The position numbers and the translations under genes are program-made. A stretch of 64,000 nucleotides of DNA, from contig NZ_VOBC01000001.1 in the NCBI RefSeq assembly GCF_008369195.1, positions 1,116,001 to 1,180,000 of the forward strand, read 5' to 3'. Origin of the DNA: Sporosarcina sp. ANT_H38 (lineage in GTDB: Bacteria > Bacillota > Bacilli > Bacillales_A > Planococcaceae). Below the pieces are notes generated by a model. The model worked only from the letters and a program-made list of their open reading frames with translations. It made no database searches and had not been told where the DNA came from. This document shows positions 13,584-19,562 of the stretch, piece by piece. Positions within the stretch are counted from its first letter, which is position 1. The number at the start of each line of letters is the position of its first letter.

Positions 13584-13652
13584 AAGCCGATTTATTGTTA
13601 ATTAAGGCCGAAAAATCGGCTTATTATGCCGTTTCTACGGTCACTCGAGTGA
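13584..13652. promoter_or_regulatory. Inverted repeats upstream of the sigma-54 promoter (candidate activator sites)
   Basis: AAGCCGATTT at 13584-13593 is repeated as its exact inverse at 13613-13622. A shorter dyad GCCGA-AAAA-TCGGC lies at 13607-13620, and a perfect 12-bp palindrome TCACTCGAGTGA lies at 13641-13652. They sit about 30-100 bases upstream of the -24 element, where NtrC-type activators bind. No T-run follows them, so they are not terminators. The assignment to the adjacent response regulator is inference. Confidence 0.55.
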
Positions 13653-13682
13653 ATAATTAATGATAAAGGCTTGTTTAATAAG

Positions 13683-13700
13683 TTGGCACGATACTTGCAA
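13683..13700 (+). promoter_or_regulatory. Sigma-54 (-24/-12) promoter of the Zn alcohol dehydrogenase
   Basis: TTGGCACGATACTTGCAA matches the sigma-54 consensus (TGGCACG-N4-TTGCA), with the invariant GG at 13685-13686 and GC at 13697-13698, 12 bases apart. The start codon of the dehydrogenase is 55 bases downstream. A cognate sigma-54-dependent activator is encoded 1.2 kb away on the other strand. Confidence 0.88.
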
Positions 13701-13754
13701 TATTAAAGATGAACAACAAAATATGGAAGCTAAGATAAAAGGGAGGAATTAATT

Positions 13755-14813
13755 ATGAAAACAGCAGTTGAAAGCGGAGTTGAACAAACAGGAGAACTAT
13801 TCATGCAAGCGGCAGTTGTAAGCGAATTCAATAAAGAGCTAGAGGTTCAAGAAGTGCCAAAGCCGAAACCAGGTCCTGGTCAAGCACTTGTGAAAATTGA
13901 AGCGTGCGGTGTTTGTCATACTGATTTACATGCGGCACAAGGCGATTGGCCAGTAAAACCGAAATTACCTCTTATACCAGGACATGAAGGTGTTGGTATT
14001 GTTGAAGAAGTCGGCGAAGGGGTTACGGCTGTAAAAGTAGGGGATCGTGTAGGGATTCCATGGCTATATTCGGCATGTGGGAAATGTGATTATTGCCTGA
14101 GCGGTCAAGAGACACTCTGTCCTGACCAAGAAAATGGTGGTTATTCTGTTGACGGGGCATATGCAGAATATTGTCTTGCAGCAGCGGATTATGTGGCGAA
14201 AATTCCTGAAAGTTTAAGTTCTGTGGATGCGGCACCAATTTTATGTGCAGGTGTAACGACATACAAAGCACTTAAAGTGTCCGGAGCAAAACCAGGTGAC
14301 TGGGTAGCGATTTATGGAATTGGTGGACTTGGCCATGTCGCGCTCCAGTATGCAAAGGCAATGGGATTCAATGTTGTAGCGGTCGATATTGCTGATGAAA
14401 AACTGGAACTTGCGAAGCAACTAGGCGCTGATGAAACGGTAAATGGATTAAAAGAAGATCCAGTTGAAGCAATTAAATCACGCGTTGGCGGAGTGCAGGC
14501 GGCAATCAGTGTAGCGGTCACGAAGATAGCGTTTGAACAGGCATATCGTTCTGTTAAACGTGGCGGAACTCTTGTAGTAGTTGGGTTGCCAAATGTTGAG
14601 CTACCGATTCCTATTTTTGATACAGTGTTAAACGGTGTAACCGTGAAAGGCTCAATCGTCGGTACGCGTATTGATATGAAAGAAGCACTTGATTTTGCAG
14701 CTCGGGGTAAGGTGAAAGCACAGATTGAAACTGCACCGCTGTCTGAGATTAACACTATTCTAGACAAAATGGTCCAAGGGAAGATTAATGGAAGAGTTGT
14801 ACTGAAGTTTTAA
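13755..14813 (+). CDS. adhP: Zinc-dependent alcohol dehydrogenase (AdhP/ADH-T type)
   Basis: A medium-chain NAD-dependent alcohol dehydrogenase of 352 aa. Catalytic zinc ligands are in CGVCHTD (Cys51 region) and GHE (about 76-78). The structural zinc cysteines are C108, C111, C114 and C122. The NAD-binding motif is [14 protein letters not shown]. It interconverts primary alcohols such as ethanol and aldehydes in the cytoplasm. The ATG at 13755 follows GGGAGGAA. A second ATG (13803), preceded by GGAGAA, would give the usual family N terminus (MQAAVV), so the 16-residue extension is uncertain. A sigma-54 promoter lies upstream and a strong terminator downstream. Confidence 0.93.
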
Positions 14814-14828
14814 TTCTGGTATTCAAAA

Positions 14829-14880
14829 AGGACTACCCAACAAGTCGGTATTTAGCTGATTTGTGGGTGGTCATTTTTTT
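14829..14880 (+). terminator. Terminator of adhP
   Basis: GGACTACCCA and TGGGTGGTC arms with an extended AACAA/TTTGT base, followed by ATTTTTTT. Confidence 0.8.
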
Positions 14881-14967
14881 GCATATAAAAACCGTCTCAT
14901 TCGTTTTAGTGAGCGCAACAAAATAGCGGCGAATTTCTGAAGGTGACTAAGATTCTAATTTTATCGT

Positions 14968-16392
14968 TTATGTTTCGTTTAAATAATAGCGTATTTTTCT
15001 GCGTGAGATACCAAGATTTTCGGACGTTTCTTTACGATTGCCTGCCGTTTCATGTAGCGATTTTTTGATCATTGCTACAGCGGTCCGTTTTTCCATGCTT
15101 TTCATAAGGGCAAGTAATTCTTCGAGAGGAAATTGTTCTTGTTCGTTATAAATGCTCATGATCTTTTCGGAAAACAACTTCCATTCATCAGGGAAGTGAA
15201 GCGGTTCTTTCGAGACTGCTGCTGGATAAAGCTGTTTTAGGCCAGTAATTTTTGGTGGTAGCAGATCTGGAGTAATTACGGATCCTTTCGTTGAAATAGC
15301 GGCTATCTGACGAATAATGTTTGACAGTTCGCGCATATTTCCCGGCCAGTCATATAGCTTCATTCGTTCTACTGTTTCGGGAGAAAATAGGATACTTTCC
15401 CCGTAGCGCTTGAGCAATGAATCGATTAGTAGCGGAATGTCTTCACGACGTTCGCGGAGCGGTGGAATAACTAATTTAACAATATCAAGTCGGTATAATA
15501 AATCTTCCCGGAATGAACCACGCTGCACCGCTTCTTCTAAATTTACGTGAGAGGCGGCGATAATACGTGCGGATGTACGCTCAGCGCTCGTCCCACCAAT
15601 TTTAATATATTCACCTGTTTCGAGCACCCGCAATAGTTTTACCTGTGTAGAGACCGATGCTTCGGCTATTTCGTCAAGAAATAGAGTACCTGATGAAGCT
15701 GCTTCAAAATACCCAGCTCTATCTGTCAAAGCACCAGTAAAAGCTCCTTTCACATGACCAAATAGTTCACTTTCAAGTAGTGATTCAGAAAGAGCGCCGC
15801 AGTTAATGTTCATTAATGAGCCAGTGGGGCGATCGCTTGCAGCATGAAGAAACTTCGCAAGCACTTCTTTTCCTGTCCCCGTTTCTCCTTCGATTAACAC
15901 AGTAATCCGTTTCGGAGCAATTTTATAAGCAAGTTGATACAGCTGATGCATCGAACGGCTTGTCCCAAGAAAACATCCGATCTCACGGGCAATTCTTTGA
16001 TAATCAGTTTCCTTGGGTAATACACTTTTCTGATTTCCAAGAAGTCCGTCGATTAGCTGGTCTATCACGTTAATATCTTCAAATGGTTTTTCTATAAAAT
16101 CAGCTGCACCATGCTTAATCGCATCAACGGCTATTTTTACTGTACTATAGCCTGTCATAATGACACATTGGATATGTGGTGCTGTTGTTTTTACCATCTT
16201 TAGTATTTCAATCCCACTTCTGTCCGGCAGTCGTACGTCAATAAATGCAAGCTTAAATGGGGAAAAGTCACTAATTTGATCAAAATCTTTTCCGCTTTTT
16301 ACATGTGTTGTTTTAAAACCTTTTAATGCAAAAAGACGTGATAAAAATCGACCAAGTTCAACTTCGTCTTCAACAACCAAAATATGAGTCAT
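14968..16392 (-). CDS. Sigma-54-dependent response regulator (NtrC/AtoC type)
   Basis: A 474-aa transcription activator. The receiver domain has its phospho-acceptor at Asp52 (FIDVRLPD). The AAA+ domain carries Walker A (EGETGTGKE), the sigma-54-contacting GAFTGA loop, and Walker B (GTLFLDEI). The C terminus is a Fis-type helix-turn-helix (ENLGISRRKIRYYL). It remodels sigma-54 RNA polymerase at -24/-12 promoters. It is the last gene of a three-gene operon and is probably phosphorylated by the kinase just upstream. Its most likely target is the sigma-54 promoter of adhP, to which it is convergent. I start at ATG 16392; an ATG at 16410 overlaps the kinase gene. Confidence 0.93.
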   Translation of the reverse strand: MTHILVVEDEVELGRFLSRLFALKGFKTTHVKSGKDFDQISDFSPFKLAFIDVRLPDRSGIEILKMVKTTAPHIQCVIMTGYSTVKIAVDAIKHGAADFIEKPFEDINVIDQLIDGLLGNQKSVLPKETDYQRIAREIGCFLGTSRSMHQLYQLAYKIAPKRITVLIEGETGTGKEVLAKFLHAASDRPTGSLMNINCGALSESLLESELFGHVKGAFTGALTDRAGYFEAASSGTLFLDEIAEASVSTQVKLLRVLETGEYIKIGGTSAERTSARIIAASHVNLEEAVQRGSFREDLLYRLDIVKLVIPPLRERREDIPLLIDSLLKRYGESILFSPETVERMKLYDWPGNMRELSNIIRQIAAISTKGSVITPDLLPPKITGLKQLYPAAVSKEPLHFPDEWKLFSEKIMSIYNEQEQFPLEELLALMKSMEKRTAVAMIKKSLHETAGNRKETSENLGISRRKIRYYLNET

Positions 16393-16396
16393 GACT

Positions 16397-18031
16397 TCAC
16401 AGCCTTTCATCGGACATTGGGATTGTTAGGGTAAATGTCGTACCACTACCTTGCATCGTTTCAACAGATAACATTCCGCCATGCGCTTTCGCAATCCCGA
16501 AACTAACGGACAAGCCAAGACCAGTTCCGCTGTCAGCATCTTTTGTTGTGAAAAAAGGATGAAAGATATCATTTAGTACGTCCTTTGCAATGCCAGTGCC
16601 ATTATCAGTTATACATAAGAGTAATGAATCACCATCTATTTTCGTCTGAATAAAAATGGTTTTTTCATCTACATCAGCTGATTTAAATGCATCTTTTGCA
16701 TTCATCAGCAAGTTGACTGCTATTTGACTCAACTGCTGCAAATTACCGTTCAAAGTTGGAAGGCTAGGGGCTAGATCTATGTCGATTGAAATATGTTGTT
16801 GCTCAATTTGTCGACGCGTTAAACTAAGTGCTTCGTTGACGGCATCGTTTAAAGAACATGGTTTAAAAGAAAAATTTCCTTGGCGTGAAAAGACGAGTAG
16901 ACTACGAATAATCGTCATGCAGCGCTTGCCGCACTGGTCAATGTCGTCTAGCAAAGGTTTTATTTGCTTATCAGCCGATTGTGTCCTAAGCAGAAGCTGT
17001 GTGTTTCCAATAATTGATGTTAGTGGGTTGTTTAGTTCGTGCGCGACCCCCGCGGCCATTTCTCCAATTGCTGCAAGCTGCCCAGAATGCATGAGCTGCA
17101 CTTCCAACAGTCTTTTTTCGGTTATATTTTTGCGATAAATAATGACGGCGTCAATTGACTCATCTGGTCCGAAAAGGGGATAGCACGAACAATCATAAAT
17201 GTCATTTCCATGGTTAAGCTCAGCGGATTGTGGACTTTTTGTAGCTATTGTCTTTTGAAAAGGGTCCTCGGTATAACGGCTAGCTTGTTTCATGATGGGT
17301 CGGATATCTTGGCCAATCTCAAGGGGCCAGTCCAATCGCGCAGCATTATTTCTAGATAAAATAGTACCATCAGAAGCAATGATTAAAATTGAGTCCGATA
17401 CCGCTCGAAATGTTTCTTCCCAGCGCTGCTTACCGGCCAAAACCTCTCCGTATAGACGTGCATTTTCCATACAGACCGCGATTTGGTCAGCTAAATGAAG
17501 AAAAAAAGATTTATCCTCTTCATCGAATTCCAAAGACGAGCGGCTACCAAGTGATAAAACACCGATTGTTTTTCCGCTACTTTTTAATGGAAACAAATGA
17601 ACAGAAACAAGTCCAAGATGTCGAAAGCCTTCTTTCTCAAAAAATGAATCGGTATTGCTTTCGTGATAAATCGCGTATTGACCTGTTACAAAGACATTAT
17701 TATAAAGGGATCCAGCGCCTGGAAATAGAGTGTTTTTTTCGAGATAAGTGTCCTGTTCTGGATATACATATGACATAACAAGTTTTTGATCATTCCCAAG
17801 TGCTGTACTGATACGATCAATCGAGTAAACAGTCTTTAATGTAATGAGTGTATTTTGTAACATATCTGTCACAGAAAAATCAGCTGTAAAACTTTTCATA
17901 ACCTCATTGATCATTTCAAGTTGGCTATTTTTCTTTTTCAATTCATCAACTGTAGTTTTCAATTCCGTATAATAATTATGTTTGGAAGATTGAACACCAG
18001 TTAAGAGATCAATCATTTCATGTCTTCTCAT
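16397..18031 (-). CDS. Cytosolic GAF-PAS sensor histidine kinase
   Basis: A 544-aa kinase without membrane segments. It has an N-terminal coiled coil, a GAF domain (about 40-190), a PAS domain (about 205-295), and a HisKA domain with H-box VAHELNNPLTSIIG. The HATPase domain carries an N-box NAKDAF, DNGTGI and GTGLGLS. It should sense a cytoplasmic ligand or redox state and phosphorylate the downstream NtrC-type regulator. The ATG at 18031 follows AGGTGAT. Its stop lies four bases before the regulator start, and its start is ten bases after the Fe-ADH stop, so all three are one transcript. Confidence 0.92.
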   Translation of the reverse strand: MRRHEMIDLLTGVQSSKHNYYTELKTTVDELKKKNSQLEMINEVMKSFTADFSVTDMLQNTLITLKTVYSIDRISTALGNDQKLVMSYVYPEQDTYLEKNTLFPGAGSLYNNVFVTGQYAIYHESNTDSFFEKEGFRHLGLVSVHLFPLKSSGKTIGVLSLGSRSSLEFDEEDKSFFLHLADQIAVCMENARLYGEVLAGKQRWEETFRAVSDSILIIASDGTILSRNNAARLDWPLEIGQDIRPIMKQASRYTEDPFQKTIATKSPQSAELNHGNDIYDCSCYPLFGPDESIDAVIIYRKNITEKRLLEVQLMHSGQLAAIGEMAAGVAHELNNPLTSIIGNTQLLLRTQSADKQIKPLLDDIDQCGKRCMTIIRSLLVFSRQGNFSFKPCSLNDAVNEALSLTRRQIEQQHISIDIDLAPSLPTLNGNLQQLSQIAVNLLMNAKDAFKSADVDEKTIFIQTKIDGDSLLLCITDNGTGIAKDVLNDIFHPFFTTKDADSGTGLGLSVSFGIAKAHGGMLSVETMQGSGTTFTLTIPMSDERL

Positions 18032-18040
18032 AGAGATCAC

Positions 18041-19183
18041 CTACAAGGCCTGTCGGAGAAGAAAAGCGACTTCTTCTGCAGAGATATCTCGAGGATTGGT
18101 GATCATACAAGCATCTAACAGCGCTATCTGACTGATTTCAGGAATCGCTGACTCTTCAAAGCCCATTTCCGACAATGTAAGCGGCGCACCAATATCAACC
18201 GCAAGATTCCGCACATGACTAATCGCTTTTTTGCCTGCTGCTGATACTGAAAGTGTTGCAATATCTTCGCCCATTAATTCGGCCATAATCTTAAACTTAT
18301 TTGGGGCGGCTAGTGCATTAAATTCCATAACATGAGGTAGAAGTACAGCATTAATATCTCCATGTAAAAAAGGGTAGCGGCCACCGATTGTATGGGCCAT
18401 CGCATGAACTGCGCCAAGGATTGCATTAGAAAAAGCGAGACCGGCATGAAGGCTTGCCATTGCCATTTTTTCTTTTGCATCTTTATTGTAACGGGAAGCA
18501 ACAGATGGACGTAAAAATTGCGTCGACAATGCAATCGCACTTTTAGCGTGAACATCAGTCAGTGGTGTTGCAGCAATGCTGACGAAAGATTCAATTGCGT
18601 GAGTTAGCACATCTAGTCCTGTCGAGGCAGTAAGTCGAGCACTCTTCGTGGCAAGAACATCGGGATCAATAATGGCGATATCAGGTACAAGTGACTTTGA
18701 AACAATCGTCATTTTTTTCTGCCTTTCAGTATCCACGATAACGGAAAACTGGGACACCTCAGAACCTGATCCAGCAGTCGTTGAAACCATTACGAGGGGG
18801 GGAAGGGGTTTTGAAATTTGATCTACTCCCTCATAATCACGAATCTGGCCCCCGTTTGTTACTAGAATTGCGGCTGCCTTAGCAATGTCAATCGCGCTTC
18901 CACCTCCAACCCCAATTAATGCATCGCAATCATTTTCGAGATAAACGCGAGCACACATCTCGGCTTCTTGCTCTGTTGGATTAATACTGATTTCGGAAAA
19001 AATAATAGAGGAGAGCCCGGCTTCCCGACAACTTTTCTCAGTAATCTCTGCCCAACCGGCTTTAATCACACCTGGATCTGTCACAATAAGCACATTTCGA
19101 GCACCAAGCCGAGCACAACTTTCTCCGGCTTGATGAATTGAGCCACTCCCAAAAATCACTTCAGGCATAACAAATTTAAACAT
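18041..19183 (-). CDS. Iron-containing alcohol dehydrogenase (group III)
   Basis: A 380-aa Fe-ADH. The NAD-binding signature GVGGGSAIDIAKA is present, as are the metal-binding region DVLTHAIESF and the His-rich GAVHAMAHTIGG helix. The group oxidises or reduces short alcohols and aldehydes. Here it heads an operon with a sensor kinase and a sigma-54 activator. In Pseudomonas a related Fe-ADH-like protein, ErcA, belongs to the ethanol-oxidation signalling cascade, so this enzyme may generate or consume the signal. That role is inference. The ATG follows AAGGTGG. Confidence 0.93.
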   Translation of the reverse strand: MFKFVMPEVIFGSGSIHQAGESCARLGARNVLIVTDPGVIKAGWAEITEKSCREAGLSSIIFSEISINPTEQEAEMCARVYLENDCDALIGVGGGSAIDIAKAAAILVTNGGQIRDYEGVDQISKPLPPLVMVSTTAGSGSEVSQFSVIVDTERQKKMTIVSKSLVPDIAIIDPDVLATKSARLTASTGLDVLTHAIESFVSIAATPLTDVHAKSAIALSTQFLRPSVASRYNKDAKEKMAMASLHAGLAFSNAILGAVHAMAHTIGGRYPFLHGDINAVLLPHVMEFNALAAPNKFKIMAELMGEDIATLSVSAAGKKAISHVRNLAVDIGAPLTLSEMGFEESAIPEISQIALLDACMITNPRDISAEEVAFLLRQAL

Positions 19184-19355: not shown

Positions 19356-19379
19356 TTGACATACCATACGGGGGTATGT
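19356..19379 (+). promoter_or_regulatory. -35 box and CsoR-type operator of a decayed copZ copy
   Basis: TTGACA (19356-19361) overlaps the dyad ACATACC-N7-GGTATGT (19359-19379). It matches the arrangement in front of the intact copZ at 21464-21485. The operator is well kept although the gene behind it is broken. Confidence 0.7.
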
Positions 19380-19415
19380 TAAGTTGGGATCATTAATAGG
19401 TAGGAGGTAGTCAAA

Positions 19416-19514
19416 ATGAAAGAGATAATGCAAGTACAAGGGATGTTTTGTACTTGTTGTGTCAATTTAATTGAAGGAAGTGTAGGCTATACCGTCAGCT
19501 ATTTTCAACAATAG
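19416..19514 (+). pseudogene. Truncated copZ copy (heavy-metal-associated domain remnant)
   Basis: A 32-codon ORF with a good AGGAGG site. Its first 24 residues (MKEIMQVQGMFCTCCVNLIE...) align with the intact CopZ at 21526, including the GMxCxxC copper site. After about residue 24 the similarity ends and a stop follows, whereas CopZ needs 66 residues. It is followed at 19563-19609 by a copy of the copA leader. The whole block is therefore a degenerated duplicate of the copZ-copA junction. Confidence 0.7.
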
Positions 19515-19562
19515 TAAATCAACCTTTGTTCATGTCATATGCATGTATATAGTGGATTATAG

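Follow-up and report, generated by a model that had tools for sequence, protein, structure and literature searches.

Alcohol oxidation in Sporosarcina sp. ANT_H38 is probably controlled by a sigma-54 two-component regulon, in which an iron-dependent alcohol dehydrogenase (Fe-ADH) would act as the sensor by sitting on the N-terminus of a histidine kinase, and adhP, the gene for a zinc-dependent alcohol dehydrogenase (Zn-ADH), would be the output. The genes concerned lie within a 64,000-nucleotide stretch of contig NZ_VOBC01000001.1 (positions 1,116,001 to 1,180,000), hereafter the window, in a genome of 4.63 Mb with a single RpoN match. The predicted regulon itself (operon, promoter, activator sites and their joint presence or absence) is strongly supported by comparison of genomes; phosphotransfer, docking of the enzyme, its ligand and the direction of catalysis are what we infer on top of it.

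The operon and the adhP promoter

All on the minus strand, the Fe-ADH, kinase and regulator genes follow each other head to tail, with a 14-base overlap between the frames of kinase and regulator, and adhP is convergent toward this operon (Table 1). The four open reading frames are as they had been read in a preliminary description of the window, coordinates and domains included. AdhP scores 415.4 bits against NCBIfam NF006940 (cut-off 344) and thus belongs to that family. The regulator does contain GAFTGA, as had been said, and is of the NtrC type by both Pfam and alignment, with a receiver, a sigma-54 AAA+ domain and a Fis-type helix-turn-helix (HTH). Its residues D58, D15, E16, T86 and K108 are invariant across 11 orthologues, and so is H334 of the kinase, while GAFTGA is kept in nine of the 11 and reads GSFTGA in L018 and L019. 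As for the kinase, previously described as soluble and of GAF-PAS type, no membrane segment was found in the window protein (the highest hydropathy mean over 19 residues is 1.13) and Pfam detects GAF, HisKA and HATPase domains. The PAS domain stands less firmly, being sub-threshold in the window protein (E 0.004) and above cut-off in a Geobacillus relative, with a PAS-like strand-helix order visible in the predicted fold (mean predicted local distance difference test score, or pLDDT, of 67.8), whose parts are a helix pair at the N-terminus and regions resembling GAF and PAS.

When 261 genomes of the order were searched with the kinase (E up to 1e-40), it was found in 11, together with the Fe-ADH and the regulator in every one. 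A Zn-ADH is near the operon in nine of them; in L018 and L019 the operon-side promoter precedes an aldehyde dehydrogenase instead. In all 11 the close target is preceded by a -24/-12 promoter that departs from the pattern at 0-2 of 11 positions, and nine of the 11 close-target regions contain a GCCG-N6-CGGC dyad matching at least 7 of 8 positions, compared with 258 of 22,000 shuffled regions. A wider contig scan with the kinase N-terminus, using two seeds, yielded 75 loci, most of which carry the operon, in Sporosarcina, Bacillus, Domibacillus, Anoxybacillus, Geobacillus, Halalkalibacter, Lysinibacillus, Ureibacillus and other genera, as well as in Desulfuromonadales and some Clostridia. The preliminary description had suggested a search for co-conservation of genes and promoter, and operon and target promoter do occur together in 11 of 11 genomes and again across many genera, a recurrence that excludes the opposite outcome, namely operons never accompanied by a sigma-54 promoter. 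The system is widespread in Bacillales, with relatives in Desulfuromonadales. It had been called unusual, which holds for its regulator, receivers being present on only 44 sigma-54 activators (~10%) in Clostridiales (PMC6615313; here and below, papers cited by PMC number are used for the part of their text that was accessible), but not for its distribution in Bacillales. Plasmids searched with the kinase gave 4517 matches, of which the best 20 look like generic kinases, and no match with the N-terminus of a Desulfuromonadales kinase.

In the wider set, a strong promoter precedes 43 of 45 targets (42 of 42 Zn-ADHs, one of three aldehyde dehydrogenases), and the two targets without a strong one lie downstream of another Fe-ADH gene, for which a promoter match was found but no dyad. 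Dyads of at least 7/8 accompany 30 of the 43 strong promoters (500 shuffles: mean 0.3, maximum 3), and the 41 strong dyads show a phasing of 10.5 bases (R 0.89), related promoters not being independent. In many Bacillaceae loci an aldehyde dehydrogenase gene lies downstream of the Zn-ADH gene in the same direction. A second Fe-ADH, transcribed away from the sensor operon, was also seen at five Desulfuromonadales loci (L085, L087, L090, L094 and L096); that of L090, the only one scanned, is YiaY-like by family model, and all five regions have -24/-12 matches 139-228 bases before the gene, by a loose pattern that comes with no chance level.

In the window, the near-consensus promoter previously noted 55 bases before the Zn-ADH is present and conserved in relatives. 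Taken alone, a -24/-12 pattern says little: the window has four matches with at most one mismatch against 1.75 expected, and genome-wide the 17-base pattern gives eight matches against six for the reversed control. Chance is ruled out for the adhP promoter because it is conserved ahead of the targets, with GCCG-N6-CGGC sites upstream of most of them. These palindromes, overlooked in the preliminary description, are the candidate activator sites, lying ~56, ~77 and ~98 bases upstream of the promoter. The central dyad, 62 bases before the promoter, is the sole exact copy in the genome, and relatives have GCCG half-sites or dyads at ~-98, which matches the offset of the distal half-site. Such sites would tie the local regulator to the adhP promoter. 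No sigma-54 promoter was seen for the operon itself. A second perfect -24/-12 match (16586-16601, minus strand) was rejected, since it is inside the kinase coding sequence and missing from orthologues, and so were the other seven of the eight genome-wide matches as regulon members, CCG-N6-CGG dyads being found upstream of adhP only.

Table 1. Genes and predicted regulatory elements of the locus (positions in the window)
Feature	Position	Strand	Basis or remark
Distal candidate activator half-site GCCGATTTATTGTT	13586-13599	+	21 bases before central dyad
Central candidate activator dyad GCCGAAAAATCGGC	13607-13620	+	8/8 positions
Proximal candidate activator dyad GCCGTTTCTACGGT	13628-13641	+	7/8 positions; 21 bases after central dyad
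Sigma-54 (-24/-12) promoter of adhP TTGGCACGATACTTGCA	13683-13699	+	55 bases before Zn-ADH start
adhP, target, Zn-ADH of AdhP type	13755-14813	+	NCBIfam NF006940
NtrC-type response regulator (receiver, AAA+ with GAFTGA, HTH)	14968-16410	-	Pfam, alignment
Soluble GAF-PAS histidine kinase, N-terminal LTGxxSSKxxYY motif at residues 13-24	16397-18040	-	
ErcA-like Fe-ADH, proposed sensor subunit	18041-19183	-	Pfam, NCBIfam, clade

The adhP gene appears to be the one clear target in the window genome, and an aldehyde dehydrogenase is predicted to be controlled as well in relatives. The earlier claim of a complete regulon stands for adhP and must be narrowed otherwise, to a single target in a genome whose own aldehyde dehydrogenase has no intact promoter. 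The latter gene, on contig 3, was rejected as a second target: by eye, its upstream region shows no dyad and nothing nearer to a promoter than TGGCAGAAGTTTGCG, which is one base short. It is the closest aldehyde dehydrogenase of the genome (L142, G000:C3:262683-264221), 88% identical to that of L019, and TGGCAGAAGTTTGCG is possibly a relic of a -24/-12 promoter.

Operon and sites come and go together at adhP, as judged from orthologues at 22 loci (L109-L130) with a looser dyad pattern, leaving aside partial copies (G231:C3 and G182:C13) and homologues of 50-53% identity (L131-L138). Ten of ten adhP genes in operon-bearing genomes have promoter and dyad, including that of G182, which is ~58 kb from the operon; the eleventh such genome, G193, gave no adhP match. 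A dyad is near the adhP start in none of 12 operon-less genomes, including one with a truncated copy (L130 of G228), L129 having a loose match at -267 with no promoter nearby. Three additional operon-less copies have neither promoter nor dyad, which brings the overall figure to none of 14 intact copies (L130 is outside these 14 and inside the 22 rows of the adhP tree comparison). On that tree, the pattern requires four changes. Among operon-less Sporosarcina relatives, a near-intact sigma-54 promoter was seen at the same place before adhP in L121, and seemingly decayed ones in L117 and L118.

The same arrangement can be retrieved without any protein information, using a composite pattern (GCCG-N6-CGGC, 41-71 bases, TTGGCAY-N5-TTGCW). 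It occurs in seven of the 261 genomes, i.e. six of the 11 operon-bearing ones and one of the 250 others (reversed control, one match), and 38 times in 37 of 398 Bacilli genomes (reversed control, none). Of these 38 matches, 30 were inspected, the other eight having no locus: 18 are before an adhP orthologue, 10 before lysine-catabolism-like genes and two before neither. Fourteen of the 18, all from a genus labelled f22/g40, have an ErcA-like Fe-ADH (55-57% identity) divergent from adhP, and at least two other matches (G533 and G294) are apparently on contigs of the 75-locus set. The lysine-type loci (L166-L170 and L188-L192) presumably encode enzymes of the 3,5-diaminohexanoate dehydrogenase and lysine 2,3-aminomutase types, and seven of the 10 have a relative of the sigma-54 activator (33-39% identity). 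Because the same arrangement precedes such genes near these relatives, the site type is not private to the alcohol regulator, and in other Bacilli sites of this kind may serve a second activator too.

The Fe-ADH as candidate sensor

The role proposed for the Fe-ADH is based on its family, its phylogeny and its coupling to a short kinase motif, among other comparisons. Pfam domains are far above cut-off in the window protein, and ErcA (NCBIfam NF041833), the enzyme of a Pseudomonas alcohol cascade, is its best family model. The same holds for all seven kinase-linked Fe-ADHs tested, the window protein included (full-length proteins 455-500 bits, a 266-residue piece 362 bits), whereas the model ranks only third, at 380-433 bits, in the four free neighbours. 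In a quick tree of 68 rows, 48 kinase-linked Fe-ADHs form one branch (SH-aLRT, the Shimodaira-Hasegawa-like approximate likelihood ratio test, 99), which otherwise holds only two Rhodococcus proteins. Across the 75 loci, kinase motif and Fe-ADH go together: the motif comes with an adjacent Fe-ADH in 64 and with one close by in three; L089 has the motif at a contig edge; L103 has it in a broken kinase frame; L108 gave no kinase match; and the remaining five, which are three sister kinases (L091, L093 and L100) and two distant kinases (L106 and L107), have neither motif nor Fe-ADH. The sisters retain a related kinase and regulator, and the one that was scanned (L091) has GAF above cut-off and PAS just below. 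A -24/-12 match was seen beside the sister kinase-regulator pairs, next to genes that we take to be molybdenum hydroxylases. We propose, from these comparisons, that the Fe-ADH docks on the LTGxxSSKxxYY motif of the kinase and acts as its sensor subunit.

Several points weigh against this reading. The window Fe-ADH scores 454.9 bits against the ErcA model, whose curated cut-off of 550 is reached by none of the tested kinase-linked Fe-ADHs; D191, H195, H260 and H274, presumably its metal ligands, align with solved Fe-ADHs and are retained, so it could be a plain enzyme; on two Rhodococcus plasmids the Fe-ADH is ~40 kb from the motif kinase; and the N-terminal helix pair and motif region of the kinase model are of low confidence, with pLDDT below 50 for residues 1-34. 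As for the regulon, 13 of the 43 strong promoters have no dyad of at least 7/8, five of these having none of even 6, and the adhP tree holds only three independent pairs, which are all concordant and too few for significance. Moreover, the wider scan was not blind to the kinase motif, which was part of one of its two seeds. Independent support for the motif therefore comes from lineages that this seed does not account for. Desulfuromonadales kinases read LTGVDSSK, which does not fit the motif-bearing seed. The f22/g40 loci were found by DNA pattern, and the three that were read have Fe-ADH, kinase and regulator in order, with LTGIQSSRKSYY or LTGISSSRKSYY in the kinase. In Actinomycetota, the kinase of Tsukamurella, a lineage found by Fe-ADH similarity, has LTGLRSGKSSYY, and Mycolicibacterium and the two Rhodococcus plasmids have variants ending in FY.

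Tsukamurella (L139) and Mycolicibacterium (L148) have Fe-ADHs of the same clade as that of the window and kinases with a similar N-terminal motif, but Tsukamurella has a HisKA_3 kinase core and a LuxR-type regulator in place of the sigma-54 output. On the Tsukamurella plasmid (L139, 1965-9124), Fe-ADH, motif kinase and LuxR-type regulator genes come after a gene (mdo) for an N,N-dimethyl-4-nitrosoaniline (NDMA)-dependent methanol dehydrogenase. The parallel with ErcA thus has indirect support, from the best family model, the single clade and the different kinase type in Actinomycetota. A bolder proposal, to which we give even chances, is that ErcA-type Fe-ADHs are portable sensor subunits that would sit on the N-terminal LTGxxSSKxxYY tag of different kinases, in Bacillota, Desulfuromonadales and Actinomycetota, and report alcohol turnover to the regulator served by each kinase, the Bacillales output being an undescribed kinase-driven sigma-54 alcohol regulon.

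A possible mechanism and its alternatives

The circuit could work as follows: (i) Fe-ADH, kinase and regulator would be co-produced from one operon, (ii) the Fe-ADH would, with NAD, bind or convert an alcohol or aldehyde while docked at the N-terminus of the kinase, whose activity it would alter, (iii) the kinase would phosphorylate the regulator, (iv) regulator dimers would occupy the three GCCG-N6-CGGC sites, which share one helix face at a spacing of 21 bases, and would assemble the AAA+ ring, (v) the GAFTGA loops of this ring would open sigma-54 polymerase at the adhP promoter and (vi) AdhP, with an aldehyde dehydrogenase in many relatives, would be produced and alcohol oxidised.

The strongest alternative, which we consider unlikely without dismissing it, keeps the regulon and makes the Fe-ADH an ordinary co-expressed enzyme, the kinase sensing alcohol, aldehyde or redox state through its own GAF or PAS domain. 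It would account for the retained metal-site residues, and a GAF domain, even if diverged, is found in all linked kinases scanned with Pfam. Clostridial AdhR is likewise thought to sense via its own GAF and PAS (PMC7017808). Against it, the kinase-linked Fe-ADHs make up a clade of their own, separate from free ones, and the sister kinases that have GAF and lack the motif have no Fe-ADH. PAS, for its part, seems dispensable, as two other lineages have linked kinases without a PAS match; one of them is f22/g40, where the sensor part has diverged and GAF is sub-threshold in the two kinases scanned.

Less probable still is a circuit for aldehyde reduction and fermentation, i.e. alcohol formation as under Clostridium AdhR. 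The reactions of Zn-ADHs and Fe-ADHs are reversible, and the known activator offers a precedent, driving alcohol-forming dehydrogenases in C. beijerinckii (PMC7017808). However, an aldehyde dehydrogenase often follows adhP or replaces it as target, and this frequent pairing favours oxidation. Finally, a coincidental neighbourhood, in which adhP would depend on another activator or on sigma-A while the operon regulated something else, has very little to recommend it: other sigma-54-type loci are present in the genome and 12 operon-less relatives retain adhP (one copy truncated), but operon and sites appear and vanish together and the only exact site of the genome is the one before adhP.

Known systems and outlook

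One of the closest known systems is ErcA-ErcS-ErbR of Pseudomonas (YiaY, PP_2683 and AgmR in P. putida), where an Fe-ADH is also beside a sensor kinase controlling alcohol-oxidation genes (PMC12997753). That cascade has a hybrid kinase, a LuxR-type regulator and pyrroloquinoline quinone (PQQ)-dependent dehydrogenase targets (PMC12997753), whereas the window has a simple soluble kinase, a sigma-54 activator and a Zn-ADH target. Kinase and regulator do not belong with ErcS and ErbR, there being no receiver in the former, and AAA+ and Fis-type HTH in the latter. Pseudomonas ErcS was not reached by protein search, the best 120 of 327 matches all sharing 89% identity or more with the Geobacter query. 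On the Firmicute side, the closest likeness is to C. beijerinckii AdhR, which is likewise a sigma-54 activator and has several sites upstream of an adh gene, but is a one-component GAF-PAS protein that uses TGT-N10-12-ACA sites (PMC7017808, PMC6615313). The window regulator differs in having an N-terminal receiver, a partner kinase and conserved GCCG-N6-CGGC sites, with neither GAF nor PAS in the protein nor conserved sites of the TGT-N10-12-ACA type, and is therefore not an AdhR. No description of the Bacillales system was found in the literature searched, outside of which most subscription papers fall; a 2025 sigma-54 survey mentions in passing, in its accessible part, a class IV alcohol dehydrogenase in Bacilli (PMC12316311).

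Elsewhere in the window, a short and truncated-looking fragment (19357-19515, plus strand), which we take to be CopZ-like, is behind a promoter with what looks like a CsoR-type palindrome CATACGGGGGTATG, and the genes just downstream are presumably cation-efflux, CsoR-like and CopA-like.

A 2026 review called the signalling mechanism of the Fe-ADH in the Pseudomonas cascade unresolved (PMC12997753). The Bacillales loci offer a small, soluble, three-protein version of such a system, with a target promoter, predicted activator sites and a candidate docking motif, and they come with natural controls, i.e. sister kinases without motif or enzyme and genomes without operon and sites together. If the proposal is true, kinases of several phyla would have an enzyme as their sensory subunit, and a ready alcohol-responsive sigma-54 promoter for strain engineering would be at hand in Bacillales.

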